From an uncultured Bacteroidota bacterium (GTDB taxonomy: Bacteria > Bacteroidota > Bacteroidia > Flavobacteriales > Flavobacteriaceae): 64,000 nt of DNA. Position numbers and translations under genes: made by a program. Of this stretch, positions 5,534 to 44,798 are shown piece after piece; within the stretch, counting starts at the first letter, position 1; each line of letters begins with the position of its first letter. The DNA lies in assembly GCA_902614065.1 (NCBI GenBank), contig CACMJT010000006.1:28322-92321 (forward strand), in the 5' to 3' direction. The notes beneath the pieces are model-generated. The model was not told where the DNA came from. It saw only the letters and a list, made by a program, of their open reading frames with translations, and searched no databases.

Positions 5534-6796
5534 ATGTCTTATATTTTTACATCAGAATCGGTTAGTGAAGGGCATCCAGACAAAATTGCAGATCAGATTA
5601 GTGATGCAATTTTAGATGCCTTTTTAGTGCTTGATAAAAATTCTAAAGTTGCTTGTGAAGTTATGGTCACGACTGGACAAGTTATAATTTCTGGTGAGGT
5701 TAGTTCACAAGCCTATGTCGATATTGAAAAAGTTGTTCGAGAACAGATTAAAAATATTGGTTACGATAAGAGTGAACTTAAATTTGATTATAAATCTTGT
5801 GGGATTCTAACTTACATAAATGAACAGTCTCCGGACATTGCGATTGGCATTGAGACTAAAGAACCAAAATTACAAGGAGCTGGTGACCAAGGTATTATGT
5901 TCGGTTACGCTGTTAATGAAACAAAAGAATATATTCCCATGACCTTAGATTTATCACACAAAATATTGGCTGAGTTAGCTTTGATTAGAAAAGACGGAAA
6001 TACTATGTCATACTTAAGACCAGATTCAAAGTGTCAAGTAACTATCCAATACGATAAACAGAATAGACCAAAAAAAATAATATCGATTGTTTTGTCCACT
6101 CAACATGAAGATTTTGATAGCGATGAAAATATGCTTAAAAAAATAAAGGATGATATCAAAAAAATATTAATACCAAGGATAAAAAAATATAATTTACAAT
6201 ACTCACAGCTTCTTTCTGATGATGGCATAAAATATTTTATCAATCCAACTGGAAAATTTGTTGTAGGAGGACCATATGGTGATACGGGTTTGACTGGAAG
6301 AAAAATTATAGTTGACACATATGGTGGAAAAGGAGGTCATGGTGGAGGGGCTTTCTCGGGTAAGGATCCGAGTAAAGTTGACAGAAGTGCTGCTTATGCA
6401 GCTCGACATTTGGCAAAAAATATTGTGGCGGCAGGAATTGCTTCTGAATGTTTGATTCAAATAAGCTATGCGATTGGAAAATCTAAACCACTCAGCATAT
6501 ACACTAATACGTATGGTACTAGTAATTTAACAATCTCCGACGACAAAATTTCATTAATTTTAAAAGATAAAATTGACCTAACACCATATGGAATAATCGA
6601 AAGATTGAAATTAAAATCACCCATATACACCGAAACTGCAGCTTATGGACATTTTGGAAGAAAGCCAAATAAGCTAATTAAAGATTATTCATTTATTCAC
6701 AAAAACTTTAATAAAATAAATACAGAATTATTCACATGGGAAAAGTTAGATTATGTAGATTTGCTAACTCAAATTTTTAAAAAATTCTACAGATGA
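5534..6796 (+). CDS. metK: S-adenosylmethionine synthetase
   Basis: Makes SAM from methionine and ATP in the cytoplasm. 420 aa, normal for the Bacteroidota form. Signatures are [25 protein letters not shown] at the N terminus, '[12 protein letters not shown]' near residue 116, '[20 protein letters not shown]' and '[22 protein letters not shown]'; the ATP- and methionine-site residues appear intact. It overlaps ahcY by 4 bp (ATGA). Its place inside a polysaccharide operon is unusual. It may be the only chromosomal copy brought here by rearrangement, or a dedicated copy supporting methylation. Confidence 0.97.
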
Positions 6797-8115
6797 AAAG
6801 TAAATTAAAAATAGAAACCTTACCTGAGTATAAAATAAAAGATATAGGATTGGCAGAGTGGGGACGAAATGAAATAAAACTGGCCGAATCAGAAATGCCT
6901 GGATTAATGGCCCTAAGACAAGAATATTCAAAATCAAAGCCATTAATGGGTGCAAGAATAGCTGGATGCCTGCATATGACTATACAGACTGCTGTTTTGA
7001 TAGAAACATTAGTTGAACTTGGTGCAGATGTTAGGTGGAGTTCATGTAATATTTTTTCCACTCAGGATCACGCTGCAGCGGCAATTGCAAAATCTGGTAT
7101 TCCAGTATTTGCCTGGAAGGGAATGAGTGAAGAAGAATTTAATTGGTGTATAGAGCAAACTCTTTTTTTTGGTGATGAAAAAAAACCACTTAATATGATT
7201 TTAGATGATGGAGGTGATTTAACAAATTTAGTCCTCGATAATTATCCAGAGTTAGCTAACAACATTAAAGGGATAACCGAAGAAACAACGACTGGTGTTT
7301 TGAGACTTCATGAAAGACAAAAAAAAGGTACTTTAATTCTGCCTGCAATTAATGTCAATGACTCTGTTACCAAGGCAAAGTTTGATAATAAGTTTGGCTG
7401 TAGAGAATCAGCTGTTGATGCAGTTAGAAGGGCAACAGACCTGATGTTAGCTGGAAAAAAAGTTGTAGTTTGTGGATATGGAGATGTGGGCAAGGGAACA
7501 GCAGCATCTTTTGCAGCTGCAAAGTGTATCGTAACTATTACGGAAATTGATCCAATTTGTGCATTACAAGCTGCTATGGATGGCTTTCAGGTAAAAAAAC
7601 TTGATAATATAATTTCTGAAATGGATATAATTGTTACTGCAACTGGTAACAAGAATATTGTTACAAAAAGACACTTTATAAAAATGAAGGATAAAGCCGT
7701 TGTTTGTAATATCGGTCATTTTGATAACGAGATTGACATGGAATGGCTAGATTCAAATCATGGACATACGAAATTGGAAATTAAACCTCAGGTAGATAAG
7801 TATGAAATTTTTGAAAAGGATATTATAATTCTTGCTGAGGGTAGGTTAGTTAACCTAGGTTGTGCTACTGGACACCCAAGCTTTGTCATGAGTAATTCCT
7901 TTACTAATCAGGTTTTGGCACAAATAGAACTTTGGACTAATAAATATCATTATGAAAATAAAGTTTACACATTACCTAAGAAACTTGATGAAAAAGTCGC
8001 CTATTTACATCTCAAAGCTTTAGACATTGAGCTTGAAAAATTAACAGATGATCAGGCAAAATATATCAATGTAAATATATCGGGTCCTTTCAAGTCTGAC
8101 AATTATAAATATTAA
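6793..8115 (+). CDS. ahcY: Adenosylhomocysteinase
   Basis: Splits S-adenosylhomocysteine into adenosine and homocysteine, relieving product inhibition of methyltransferases. 440 aa. Visible signatures are '[16 protein letters not shown]', '[17 protein letters not shown]', NAD-binding '[14 protein letters not shown]' near residue 230, '[24 protein letters not shown]' and the C-terminal [10 protein letters not shown] typical of the enzyme. It is translationally coupled to metK, so SAM synthesis and SAH recycling are paired at the front of the operon. No methyltransferase is recognisable in the operon. Confidence 0.97.
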
Positions 8116-38963: not shown

Positions 38964-39013
38964 GTGATGAAAATATCGGGATAAGTTGTAATTTTATTAT
39001 GTAATTGGATTAT

Positions 39014-41749
39014 ATGGATCCTTACTCTTTTTTAAATACTGCGCACACAGCATTCTTTGCAGAATTGTACAATGAATATCTTTTAGATCCTGGTTCAGTA
39101 GAACCCAGTTGGAGAGCATTTTTTCAAGGTTTTGAATTTGGTATTGATAAGAAATCAAAAAATGAAGATTTCTTAATACCAGAAAACATTCTCAAAGAGT
39201 TTAGGGTTGTTGAATTGATCAATGCCTATAGAACAAGAGGGCACCTTTTTACAAAAACAAATCCAGTGAGAGAAAGAAGAAAATATGTACCAACATTGGA
39301 TTTAGAAAATTTTGGTCTTTCTAATGAAGATTTACAATCAACATTTAATGCCGGGGAAATTATTGGAATTGGTAACTCAAGTCTTGAAAACATCTTGATT
39401 CATTTAGAAAGAATTTATTGTGATTCCATCGGTATTGAATACATGTACATCAGAACACCAGAGAGAATTAAGTGGATTCAAAGTTTTCTAAATAAAAACG
39501 ACAATCATCCTGAGTTTGATGTTGATAAGAAGAAACAAATTCTAAAGAAATTGATAGAGGCTTCAAGCTTTGAAAGTTTTCTTCAAAAAAAGTTTGTTGG
39601 GCAAAAAAGATTTTCTTTAGAGGGTGGAGAGTCCTTAATTCCTGCACTTGATTCTATTTTCGAAAGTGCTGCTTTGAAGGGGGTTAAAGAATTTGTTGTT
39701 GGAATGGCTCACAGAGGAAGGTTGAATACTTTATCAAATATTTTTGGTAAACCTGCAAAAGAAATATTTAGTGAATTTGTGGGTAAGGATTATGAGGAAC
39801 AAATTTTTGACGGGGATGTGAAGTATCACTTGGGTTGGACCTCCAAAAGAAAATCAGATTCAGGGATTAATGTATACATTAACTTGGCTCCAAATCCTTC
39901 TCACCTAGAATCAGTTGGTCCTGTAGTACAAGGAATAACACGAGCTAAGCAAGACAAGTATCACAAAGAAAACATTGAGAATGTTTTGCCAGTAATAATA
40001 CATGGTGATGCAGCAATTGCTGGTCAAGGTGTAGTATATGAAGTTGTTCAAATGGAGCGGCTAAAGGGCTTTAAAACTGGTGGAACCATTCACATAGTTG
40101 TAAATAATCAGATAGGTTTCACTACCAATTATATTGATGGGCGTTCATCTACTTATTGTACTGATGTGGGTAAAGCAAATTTATGTCCAATATTACATGT
40201 AAATGCTGATGATGCTGAAGCTGTTGTACATGCTTCAAATTTTGCTTTGGAGTACAGAATGAAATATAAAAGAGATGTTTTTATAGATTTATTGGGTTAT
40301 AGAAAATACGGTCATAACGAGGGCGATGAACCAAGATTTACTCAACCAAAACTTTATAAGTCCATTGCTAATCACCCATCTGTCAAGGAAATCTATGCTC
40401 AAAAGTTAATCTCAGAAAACGTTATTACAGACTCTGAATTAAAGAAAATGGAGAATAAATACGCTGATGAATTGGATTCAGATCTTGTAGATTCCAAAAA
40501 AGAAAAAAATGCAATCATAACACCCTTCATGGAACATGAATGGAATGGATTTTACTCTGTTAAGCAATCTGACATGATGAAAAAAGTTGATACCTCTGTC
40601 AGTAAAAAAGATTTGGACAAAGTAGCCAAGAGTTTGTTTGAGCTTGATAATCCAGATCAATATTTAAGAAAAGTTTCAAAATTAATGACAGATAGAAAGA
40701 CAATGTATTTTGATAAAGATAGGATTGATTGGGCGATAGCTGAAACACTTGCTTATGGTACTGTGTTAAACGAAGGTTATAATGTTAGAATTTCGGGACA
40801 AGATGTTGAAAGGGGAACCTTTTCACACAGACATGCAATTCTTAAAAAAGAAAAATCAGAAGAAGAATACATTCCATTAAATAATATTTCAGAAAATCAG
40901 GGTTTGTTTCAAATATATAATTCATCATTATCAGAATACGGTGTTATGGGTTATGAATATGGTTATGCACTTGCTTCACCTCAAACATTGACAATATGGG
41001 AAGCACAATTTGGAGATTTCAGTAACGGAGCCCAAATAATGATAGACCAATACCTGTCTTCAGCAGAGGACAAATGGAAACTTCAAAATGGATTGATATT
41101 GATGCTGCCCCATGGATATGAGGGACAGGGTGCAGAACACTCATCCGCCAGATTAGAAAGATACCTTCAACTTTGTGCTAAAGACAATATGTTTGTTGCA
41201 AATTGCACAACCCCAGCAAACTTATTTCATCTTTTGAGGAGACAGATTGTTACAAAATATAGGAAGCCATTGGTTTTGATGACACCCAAAAGCCTACTAA
41301 GACATCCAAAAGTTATTTCATCAAAAAATGATTTAATTAATGGTCAGTTTAACCCATTAATAGATGATGAAAATATTGAAAATCCTGAAAAATTGGTCTT
41401 TTGTAGCGGTAAGTTTTTTTATGATTTAATTGATTATAGGGAAAAGAATAAGATAAAAAATGTTGCGATCGTTAGAATAGAACAATTGTTTCCACTCCCA
41501 GTCAAGTCAATTAAAAAACTAATGGATAAATACAATGCAAAGGACGTTGTTTGGGCTCAAGAAGAACCAAGAAACATGGGTGCATGGGGACATATATTAA
41601 TGCATTTGGATTTTGCAAAATCATTTAGAGTTGCGTCCAGAAGATTTTACAGTTCTCCAGCATCTGGTAGTGCAGTGAGGTTTAAAAGAAGACACAAGCA
41701 AGTCATTGACTATGTATTTGATGAAAAAAAAGATAATTTTAAAAAATAA
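39014..41749 (+). CDS. sucA: 2-oxoglutarate dehydrogenase E1 component
   Basis: 911 aa from ATG (MDPYSFLNTAHTAFFAELY); the tracked TTG adds three residues. Thiamine-diphosphate enzyme of the TCA cycle. 'PSWRAFFQGFEFG', 'VVGMAHRGRLNTL', 'HLGWTSKR', 'APNPSHLESVGPVVQG', 'IHGDAAIAGQGVVYE', 'GYRKYGHNEGDEP', 'QDVERGTFSHRHAIL' and 'EAQFGDFSNGAQIMIDQYLSS' are E1 signatures. sucB follows, but with a 1.4-kb gene inserted between. Confidence 0.97.
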   Translation: MDPYSFLNTAHTAFFAELYNEYLLDPGSVEPSWRAFFQGFEFGIDKKSKNEDFLIPENILKEFRVVELINAYRTRGHLFTKTNPVRERRKYVPTLDLENFGLSNEDLQSTFNAGEIIGIGNSSLENILIHLERIYCDSIGIEYMYIRTPERIKWIQSFLNKNDNHPEFDVDKKKQILKKLIEASSFESFLQKKFVGQKRFSLEGGESLIPALDSIFESAALKGVKEFVVGMAHRGRLNTLSNIFGKPAKEIFSEFVGKDYEEQIFDGDVKYHLGWTSKRKSDSGINVYINLAPNPSHLESVGPVVQGITRAKQDKYHKENIENVLPVIIHGDAAIAGQGVVYEVVQMERLKGFKTGGTIHIVVNNQIGFTTNYIDGRSSTYCTDVGKANLCPILHVNADDAEAVVHASNFALEYRMKYKRDVFIDLLGYRKYGHNEGDEPRFTQPKLYKSIANHPSVKEIYAQKLISENVITDSELKKMENKYADELDSDLVDSKKEKNAIITPFMEHEWNGFYSVKQSDMMKKVDTSVSKKDLDKVAKSLFELDNPDQYLRKVSKLMTDRKTMYFDKDRIDWAIAETLAYGTVLNEGYNVRISGQDVERGTFSHRHAILKKEKSEEEYIPLNNISENQGLFQIYNSSLSEYGVMGYEYGYALASPQTLTIWEAQFGDFSNGAQIMIDQYLSSAEDKWKLQNGLILMLPHGYEGQGAEHSSARLERYLQLCAKDNMFVANCTTPANLFHLLRRQIVTKYRKPLVLMTPKSLLRHPKVISSKNDLINGQFNPLIDDENIENPEKLVFCSGKFFYDLIDYREKNKIKNVAIVRIEQLFPLPVKSIKKLMDKYNAKDVVWAQEEPRNMGAWGHILMHLDFAKSFRVASRRFYSSPASGSAVRFKRRHKQVIDYVFDEKKDNFKK

Positions 41750-41755
41750 TTTGTG

Positions 41756-43156
41756 ATGTTTAAATATGTAAATCCAAAAATAATTAATTCCTCAATTCTT
41801 GTAATATTAGCTTTTGTATTTATTTATTGCAGTAAAGATGGAGGAGATTCTGGAGGTGAAAATATTCCCAACAAATCAATAATCGTTAATCCATCCTCAA
41901 TTGATTTTTCTGATACAATGATTACCAAAAACTCTGCGGCTCAAACAGTTAATGTGAACCCCAACAACTTGGATTCTAACATTACAATTACTACAACTGG
42001 TGATTTTGAAATATCCTCAGACAATATAAATTTTTCAAGTTCTTTATCAATTAGTGGTTCTTCCTCCAGTAATATTTTTGTAAGATTTTCTCCATCTGAG
42101 CTAGGAAACTTGAATGGAAATATTTTATTTCAAAGTCCAGGAGCTGGAAATGCAAATGTGCTTTTAGGGGGAAAAGGAACTCGATTGAGGTATAATTACA
42201 GAACTTTCTCAAACCAAAGAATTGCATGGGGCGGAGGACATGGTCAATCATCAGTTCAAAGTTTTGATTTACATAATGATGTTAGTGATATAGAAATGAT
42301 CAAAATGTATTTACGTTTGGATTGTCCGTCAGGCGGTTGTGATCCGTGGGACAGATATGCCAATATCATGGTTAAAGATAAAACTACTAATGAGTGGTTT
42401 GAGATAGGTCGTCACATTACACCTTACGGTGTTGATAATAATGCGCTTACAAGAGGACTTGAGTTTGATGTAACAGACTTTAAAAGTCTATTGGAGGGCA
42501 ATGTTGAGCTTAGGATTTTTGTTGAGACTTGGGTTAGTTCTGGATGGATTGTGTCGCTCGAGTTTGATTATACTCCCGGCACGCCGGATTACAAATACTA
42601 CAAAGTTTCTAGAATTATTCAGTATAATGGAAACTCATTAGGAGGTGTACCTTACGGTGGGTTAAACGGCAATACTGAAATTGATTTAGAAAAGTTTGAT
42701 TTGATTAAGTCTCTTCAAATTGGAGGCAATATTGAAAGTGCTCACATACGAACCATAGTAACTGGTTGGGGACATGCGACACCTGCTGATTCTGATGGAA
42801 GAGCATGTGCTGAATGGTGTTTTAGAACACACAAAATTAAGATAGATAACTCTAATCTTTTTAGTCATTACATGGGGCCAATTGGTTGTTCTCAAAATCC
42901 GATTAATAATCAAGGTGGGAATTGGGCACCAGATAGAGCGGGTTGGTGTCCAGGAATGACTGTTCCTGTAAGAATTGATAAATTTGATAGTGATGTTTCT
43001 AATAAAACTATGAATTACGAGTATGACTTTGAGAATTGGACGAATGATTTTGTAGGAACACCAGGTTATAATAATAAAAATGCTTTTTATGCCATATCTT
43101 CCTTCTTGATTTTAAAAAGCAATAGTGAAATTGAAAGAGCAATAATATCCGATTAG
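41756..43156 (+). CDS. Peptide-N-glycosidase F homologue, predicted surface lipoprotein
   Basis: 466 aa from ATG (GTG 3 bp earlier also possible). Lipoprotein signal ending IYC25, followed by SKDGGDSGG, which resembles the acidic export signal of surface lipoproteins in Bacteroidota. Residues about 40-143 form an Ig-like 'choice-of-anchor'-type domain. Residues about 147-466 align by eye with Elizabethkingia PNGase F: '[30 protein letters not shown]', 'FVETW', '[13 protein letters not shown]', '[25 protein letters not shown]', '[21 protein letters not shown]'. The three catalytic acids (D60, E118, E206) correspond to D199, E257 and E353; all six Cys are present. It should cleave N-glycans from Asn of glycoproteins outside the cell. 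Confidence 0.92.
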
Positions 43157-43157
43157 A

Positions 43158-44375
43158 ATGATACTTGAAATGAAAGTCCCGTCACCAGGTGAGTCTATTT
43201 CTGAGGTTGAAATAGCACAATGGCTAGTAGCTGATGGTGATTATGTTGAAAAAGACCAAACCATTGCTGAGGTTGATTCTGATAAAGCAACACTTGACTT
43301 GCCTGCTGAGGAGTCGGGAGTTATAACATTAAAAGCAAGCGAAGGCGATGTAGTGCCTGTTGGAAATATCGTTTGCCATATTGATACATCAGTTAAAAAA
43401 TCAGCCAAAAAGCATACAGAACCCACTATTCCAGTAAAAGATGATAAAATTATAGAGCCTCAATCTAATCCGGAGAAAATCATTTCTGAAAAAGCCAAAA
43501 ATTCTTCTCCATCCCCGGCTGCATCCAAAATTCTAAGTGAAAAGGGAATAAATCCACTTGATGTGATTGGTTCAGGAAGAGGTGGAAGAATTACCAAGGA
43601 AGATGCCCTAAAGGCATTGCCAAAAATTGATGAAAGTTTGATATCCAAAGGCAGAAAAACAGAGCGTAAGAAATTATCAATGTTGAGAAGAAAGCTTTCC
43701 CAGAGATTAGTCGCAGTAAAAAACCTAACTGCTATGCTGACGACGTTCAATGAGGTCAACATGAGTTCAATTTTTGAAATAAGAAAAAAATACAAGGAAA
43801 TATTTAAAGAAAAACACGGAGTTAGTTTAGGTTTTATGAGCTTTTTTACAAAAGCTGTTGTTAACGCGCTTAAGGAATTTCCTGATGTCCACTCAATGAT
43901 TGATGAGGATCACAAACTCAGCTTTGATTTTTATGATATTAGCATTGCTGTTTCAGGTCCAAAGGGTCTACTAGTCCCTGTAGTTAGAAATGCTGATAAG
44001 CTCACTTTTAGTGGTATTGAAAAAGAAATAAAGCGCTTGGCAATAAAAGCAAGAGATGGTGAAATGTCTATTGAAGATATGGAAGGCGGAACCTTCACCA
44101 TTTCAAATGGAGGTGTGTTCGGATCGATGTTGTCAACTCCAATTCTTAATCCTCCTCAATCCTCCATTTTAGGAATGCACAATATTATCGAAAGACCAAT
44201 TGCAGTCAAAGGTAAAGTTGAAATACATCCAATGATGTACTTGGCATTGAGTTATGACCACAGGATAATTGACGGAAAAGAATCAGTTGGATTTTTACTT
44301 AAAATAAAAGAGGCTTTAGAAAATCCAATAGAAATATTAATGAATAATAATTTGAAAAAATCTTTAGAGATCTAA
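43158..44375 (+). CDS. sucB: Dihydrolipoamide succinyltransferase (E2 of 2-oxoglutarate dehydrogenase)
   Basis: 405 aa. Lipoyl domain with the modified lysine in '[17 protein letters not shown]' near residue 43; peripheral-subunit-binding domain '[33 protein letters not shown]'; acyltransferase domain ending in '[21 protein letters not shown]', with catalytic His and Asp. It starts 1 bp after the PNGase F-like stop, so the three genes are probably one transcript. The 3' end overlaps the convergent aspartic-protease gene by 12 bp. Confidence 0.96.
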
Positions 44376-44798
44376 TTTCAAATAAATTTTTTTCTCTGAA
44401 AAGCTTACAATTGCTTCATGTTTGCTCATGATGTCATTTCCAATTATTCCATGAATTTTAATAGATTCATTTTCCTTGAGGGTTTCGTTAATATGGTTCA
44501 TGTCAAAAACAAATAGTTTTAAATTTTCAATACTGAAACCGACGATATCTATTGAATTTTCTTTTGATATGTACATTTTTTTTATCTTTTCTGTAGCACT
44601 TGATGCTTGCTCGTCATAATTTTCAATTTTAATTTTAAATTTTTCAACACTGTTTGAATCAATACAAGAATTTGAGGCTCCAGTGTCAATTATTAGTTTT
44701 GCAGATACTCCATTTACTAAAGAATCAGTAACTAAGTGACCTGATTTAAGAATTTCAAATTTTTTTGATTGATAATTATTTATTTTTTCAACTCCCAT
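44364..44798 (-). CDS. Retropepsin-like single-domain aspartic protease
   Basis: 144 aa. The catalytic motif is '[14 protein letters not shown]' near residue 37, and the second family motif '[26 protein letters not shown]' near 115. A single DTGA site implies an active dimer, as in retroviral and bacterial clan-AA proteases. No signal peptide is visible, so it is probably cytoplasmic. Target unknown. Confidence 0.8.

Follow-up and report, generated by a model that had tools for sequence, protein, structure and literature searches.

Here, we describe a homologue of the N-glycan-releasing enzyme PNGase F that is encoded, as a lipoprotein-type precursor, between the genes for two subunits of 2-oxoglutarate dehydrogenase, sucA and sucB, in a 64,000-nucleotide stretch of DNA (hereafter the window) from an uncultured, marine member of the Flavobacteriaceae with a small genome. 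Overall, the data are best explained by an N-glycan-releasing PNGase of the cell envelope, probably serving mainly to expose peptide, whose gene was relocated once into the suc operon, and we hold this reading with good confidence. What computation shows is homology and a shared fold, together with conservation, synteny and purifying selection; by sequence, the protein is an additional member of the known PNGase F (type I) family and a predicted enzyme, with an unusual gene context. The features of the locus are collected in Table 1.

Table 1. Features of the PNGase gene and the flanking suc genes, in window coordinates
Feature	Coordinates	Strand	Basis
PNGase F orthologue, 466-aa lipoprotein-type precursor	41756..43156	+	Profile search, phmmer, alignment, model, Foldseek
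sucA, 2-oxoglutarate dehydrogenase E1	39005..41749; ATG probable at 39011	+	NCBIfam PRK09404.1 / TIGR00239 equivalogs over cut-off
sucB, 2-oxoglutarate dehydrogenase E2	43158..44375	+	NCBIfam TIGR01347 / PRK05704.1 equivalogs over cut-off
Signal peptide, residues 1-24, and putative lipid-bearing Cys25	41756..41830	+	Cys25 invariance in 42-sequence alignment; 83/85 relatives alike
SKDGGDSGG, residues 26-34, acidic Ser/Gly-rich, export-signal-like	41831..41857	+	+2 to +5 preferences; cf. PMC5080379
Ig-like domain (HYDIN/ASH, choice-of-anchor D type), ~residues 37-143	41864..42184	+	Sub-threshold HMM, model, family-specific HMM
PNGase F catalytic module, residues 146-466, two jelly rolls	42191..43153	+	PF09112 and PF09113 over gathering score; Foldseek 3pms/1pnf
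D199 = catalytic D60 of PNGase F	42350..42352	+	Invariant, 98/98 aligned relatives
E257 = E118 of PNGase F	42524..42526	+	E in 95/98, D in 3/98 relatives
E353 = catalytic E206 of PNGase F	42812..42814	+	Invariant, 98/98 aligned relatives

The open reading frame begins with an ATG, with an in-frame GTG 3 bp upstream, and its position is as an earlier note on this DNA had described it: the sucA stop at 41749 lies 6 bp before the PNGase ATG at 41756, the PNGase stop ends at 43156, 1 bp before the sucB ATG at 43158, and both flanking genes match NCBIfam equivalogs. The other neighbours in the window are cupin, aspartic protease, TatD-like and ExbB-like genes. The aspartic protease gene, which is small, retropepsin-like (clan AA) and on the minus strand (44364-44798), shares its last 12 bp of territory with the 3' end of sucB, and it adjoins sucB in those suc-linked congeners seen.

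Both Pfam domains that the earlier note had put forward as a check are found above their curated cut-offs, namely N-glycanase_N at residues 205-272 (28.2 bits) and N-glycanase_C at residues 319-430 (36.3 bits). In a phmmer search of the PDB, the PNGase F entries 1pnf, 3pms and 1pgs all match residues 146-464 at around 1e-109, followed by zebrafish Ngly2 and then by Bacteroides PNGases, and the E-value of 1.4e-109 to 1pnf excludes a chance resemblance. PNGase F and the window protein share 54% identity across 305 aligned columns. When PNGase F is aligned with 98 further rows, duplicate loci among them, D60, E118 and E206 fall on D199, E257 and E353, and the six disulfide cysteines C51, C56, C204, C208, C231 and C252 on C190, C195, C351, C355, C378 and C398, bearing out the earlier reading of both sets; the motifs quoted at that time are also present, the first being CDPWDRYA. 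Beyond these six, the only further cysteine of the protein is the putative lipid-bearing C25. An AlphaFold2 model (mean pLDDT 88.9), built from an alignment of 42 proteins from the window and related loci, contains the two side-by-side jelly rolls of the PNGase F type and superposes on PNGase F; neither of the computational outcomes that the earlier note had named as refuting its reading, a lack of N-glycanase domain hits or a fold without the paired jelly rolls, was observed. Four PNGase F entries lead the Foldseek list of PDB matches (E 2.8e-40 to 1e-38, target TM 0.94-0.95, rmsd 2.1-2.2 Å), with 3pms the best (E=2.8e-40, target TM 0.95), and further matches are to Ngly2, PNGF-II and the Bacteroides PNGases, as well as to HYDIN/CEP192-type domains.

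The protein differs from secreted PNGase F in its N-terminal region, where a hydrophobic stretch of 24 residues ends at a cysteine that is invariant among the 42 aligned sequences, a cysteine after such a stretch being present in 83 of 85 relatives. The lipoprotein-type N-terminus that had been proposed is supported, with Cys25 as the putative lipidated residue, but the acidic export motif claimed with it is approximate. Known lipoprotein export signals include K-(D/E)2 or Q-A-(D/E)2 in C. canimorsus, SDDDD in B. fragilis and SDDFE in F. johnsoniae (PMC5080379), and the relatives favour Ser, Ser/Lys, Asp and Asp/Glu at positions +2 to +5. The window protein reads CSKDGGD, with K-D at +3/+4 and thus a single acid rather than two directly after the lysine, and the -1 residue of its lipobox is an atypical Tyr. 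Its acidic stretch would appear to resemble an export signal well, if inexactly, and surface exposure is probable.

The Ig-like domain added between this N-terminus and the catalytic module, another feature claimed beforehand, is sub-threshold in Pfam and NCBIfam (Cep192_D4, ASH, choice_anch_D), though it is supported by the model, in which it forms a confident beta domain (pLDDT ~88-97) with HYDIN/CEP192-like Foldseek matches. PNGase F itself has no such domain, and an HMM of the Ig-like region detects a single copy in 46 relatives and two copies in 24, with 15 relatives having none. In one congener (L093:5932-7005), the PNGase has lost the domain while retaining the lipoprotein-type N-terminus and catalytic module, and this loss, together with the relatives that have none, marks it as a dispensable module that may most simply serve as a spacer. 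We found no description of an Ig-like lipoprotein form of PNGase in the literature examined.

Related genes occur in 14 of 22 congeners, many of whose genomes are incomplete, as well as in the window's own genome, and family-wide in 23 of 301 sampled Flavobacteriaceae genomes at E<=1e-60. The 80 related loci collected are mostly from marine Flavobacteriaceae, among them Psychroserpens, Nonlabens, Winogradskyella, Lacinutrix and Mesonia as well as many planktonic genomes obtained from single cells or by metagenome assembly. One contig labelled as Algicola, of the Pseudomonadota (L096), encodes a PNGase that falls within the Psychroserpens sequences, in a gene order matching that of Flavobacteriaceae, and is probably a mislabelled metagenome bin. 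In another small-genome planktonic flavobacterial group, an FMO-like flavin monooxygenase gene directly precedes the PNGase gene (L045, L048, L051, L052, L055, L057, L059, L062, L065, L067, L077 and L084), and is in turn often preceded by a PepSY_TM gene. A phage origin was rejected, with no relative in a phage collection, as was a defence function, with no PADLOC match.

From these data we infer co-transcription, as well as the activity of the protein, its substrate, its place at the surface and its nutritional role. The predicted activity is hydrolysis of the GlcNAc-Asn bond in N-glycoproteins or glycopeptides from eukaryotic plankton, which would convert Asn to Asp and release the glycan; the stripping of N-glycans from eukaryotic glycoproteins at the bacterial surface, as first suggested from the sequence, would still be the best inference. 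What the cell gains is a further question, to which the complement of glycosidases speaks. In a family-by-family search for glycosidases, GH92, GH38, GH20 and GH130 were not detected in the window's genome by searches that were positive in several control genomes. As these N-glycan-trimming enzymes were not found, the main benefit is probably the exposure of deglycosylated protein to proteolysis and peptide uptake, and the released glycan may also be used.

The strongest competing explanation, a serious one to which we nevertheless give rather less than an even chance, is conventional N-glycan utilization, in which a SusCD system encoded elsewhere would import the released glycan for degradation as a source of carbon and nitrogen. 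Bacterial PNGases are indeed regarded as nutrient-acquisition enzymes at the cell exterior (PMC10154615). SusD homologues are present in all 23 genus genomes, and the window's genome has several, together with GH2 and GH3 enzymes and a weak GH29-like match, a set that could process part of the glycan. Its 87% completeness means that the missing glycosidases could lie in gaps. Among congeners, one (G019) has a GH92 pair, the only GH92 in the 23 genomes, and another (G016) has a BNR (sialidase-like) gene three genes upstream of the PNGase gene in the same direction. Against this explanation stand the missing trimming enzymes, including GH20, which was found in 16 of the 23 genus genomes (not in G000, G005, G007-G010 or G013) and is also absent from the five nearest PNGase-bearing congeners of the window's genome. 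The gene neighbourhood likewise offers no recurrent polysaccharide utilization locus (PUL): neither a SusCD pair nor glycoside hydrolases adjoin the PNGase gene in the window, and the neighbours that could be identified at the 80 related loci showed no PUL-like context and no recurring SusCD or glycosidase genes, so that PUL membership was rejected. Most of six recently characterised PNGase genes are orphans too, however (PMC12381499), and an orphan gene is therefore not strange in itself. In 14 loci of larger-genome relatives, the PNGase gene is adjoined or closely accompanied by a neighbour family, one scanned member of which is an M1 peptidase. On balance, peptide exposure fits at least as well as the eating of glycans, and we favour the foraging reading with moderate confidence. 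A bolder form of it is less likely than not: here a planktonic flavobacterium with a streamlined genome would constitutively co-express PNGase F at its surface to strip planktonic glycoproteins for their peptide, would not eat the N-glycans and would leave them free to its neighbours.

A second explanation retains the PNGase F fold with a changed substrate, for example non-eukaryotic N-linked or core alpha1,3-fucosylated glycans, and is unlikely. Its basis lies in the active-site surroundings, where W86 of PNGase F is replaced by Gly225 in the window protein, as it is by glycine in 35 of the 98 relatives, including the window's clade, so that specificity may differ; at the R61 position, an arginine in the window protein, a third of the relatives have Val or Met, and loop changes within the PNGase family are known to alter the acceptance of core fucose (PMC12381499). 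Set against these substitutions, all the catalytic residues are kept, as are W59, R61, W120, W191, H193, E206, W207, R248 and W251, of which W59, R61 and W191 contact chitobiose in PNGase F (PMC12753239), and the nearest solved structures are those of type I PNGase F, the type defined by release of N-glycans without core alpha1,3-fucose, not of PNGF-II.

The placement between sucA and sucB, which had been remarked on as odd, is real, but it occurs in only a single clade of this genus. Of the 15 PNGase-bearing genus genomes, 12 have the PNGase gene immediately before sucB, and nine of these 12 have it directly between sucA and sucB. In two more of the 12 (L038 and L093) metK, ahcY and a PEMT-type methyltransferase gene intervene between sucA and the PNGase gene, metK and ahcY being named from sequence and the methyltransferase alone profile-scanned, and in G021 sucA is not reached within the stretch seen. 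The window, by contrast, has metK at 5534-6796, followed by an ORF of ahcY-like length (6793-8115), at the opening of a long plus-strand gene run. In G016, G017 and G019, the PNGase gene has other neighbours, and in the other genera found it is always in unrelated places. sucA and sucB are directly adjacent in G017, in G003 (68% complete, no PNGase detected) and in G027, from another genus, and are separated in G019 by an unrelated opposite-strand gene (L118:2929-3966), an ORF of 345 aa with no Pfam match. In the PNGase tree, the genus copies form one clade (100/97), inside which the 12 suc-linked copies are nested as a clade (100/99), and the SucB tree likewise groups the genomes with suc-linked copies (97/98); a single relocation within one clade of the genus is the simplest reading. 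The position of one congener (L036:5926-7335) differs between the two trees, and the identity of its DNA to the window, ~85-94% in sucA and ~86-88% in sucB, drops to 61-79% in the PNGase gene, a pattern that suggests either rapid divergence or replacement of the allele by recombination within the conserved suc flanks. No paper describing a PNGase between sucA and sucB was found within a limited literature collection, and the placement appears to be undescribed.

Insertion into so tightly packed an operon would give co-expression with housekeeping genes. Co-transcription of sucA, the PNGase gene and sucB is what we would expect in the window's subclade, consistent with the 6 and 1 bp gaps and with the lack of a full match to the Bacteroidota-type promoter consensus between sucA and sucB, a loose consensus that was not seen upstream of sucA either. 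The earlier note had gone further and suggested that expression may be tied to 2-oxoglutarate metabolism; on such an account the position is functionally selected, for example for assimilating released ammonia, and the order is indeed kept across a clade of at least 12 genomes. We regard this as very improbable, since other congeners, with sucA and sucB intact, and all other genera found carry the gene in unrelated places, and since other genes, namely the metK-ahcY-methyltransferase set in at least two congeners and the opposite-strand gene in G019, occupy the same junction, which thus acts as a permissive site. On synteny we accordingly rejected a functional link to the TCA cycle. That the gene is a horizontally acquired passenger of the operon, degraded or without function, as its clade-specific placement might suggest, can be dismissed almost entirely, since the frames are open throughout, the catalytic residues are kept and the gene is under purifying selection (dN/dS ~0.06-0.09 against four near relatives, and ~0.11 against L036, a comparison in which synonymous sites approach saturation).

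These findings present type I PNGase F, familiar chiefly from its use in the laboratory, as a family of lipoprotein-type, probable envelope enzymes spread across marine Flavobacteriaceae. Its carriers include planktonic lineages with small genomes, where the enzymes that usually trim N-glycans went undetected. If the bolder reading is true, open-ocean bacteria would have a strategy of deglycosylation that puts protein first. What becomes of planktonic glycoproteins and of free N-glycans in seawater can now be tested, and natural variants of PNGase can be drawn from the family.

Among known systems, the closest is PNGase F (EMTypeI) of Elizabethkingia (1pnf/1pgs/3pms), with which the window protein shares the catalytic module with D60/E118/E206, the six cysteines, the chitobiose-contact residues, 54% identity and a target TM of 0.95, and from which it differs by its lipoprotein-type N-terminus and Ig-like domain, the W86 to Gly change, eight extra residues between the jelly rolls and the suc-operon location. 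PNGase F-II (4r4x/4r4z) and the B. massiliensis PNGase (7zgn) have the same superfamily fold and also an N-terminal accessory module, but are far more distant (~11-13% identity in the Foldseek alignment), and their module is a bowl-like NBL domain, which is not present in the window protein, whereas that of the window protein is an ASH/HYDIN-like domain of ~105 residues. PNGaseL of Flavobacterium akiainvivens and the other five enzymes of PMC12381499 are similarly superfamily members with varied accessory modules and mostly orphan genes; T9SS signals are present at the C-termini of PNGaseL and PNGaseDo, in place of which the window protein has a lipoprotein-type N-terminus. The Bacteroides proteins BF0811 (3ks7), which has PNGase F-like activity, and BVU_2763 (4qhb) share the superfamily fold at ~13-14% identity in the Foldseek alignment.
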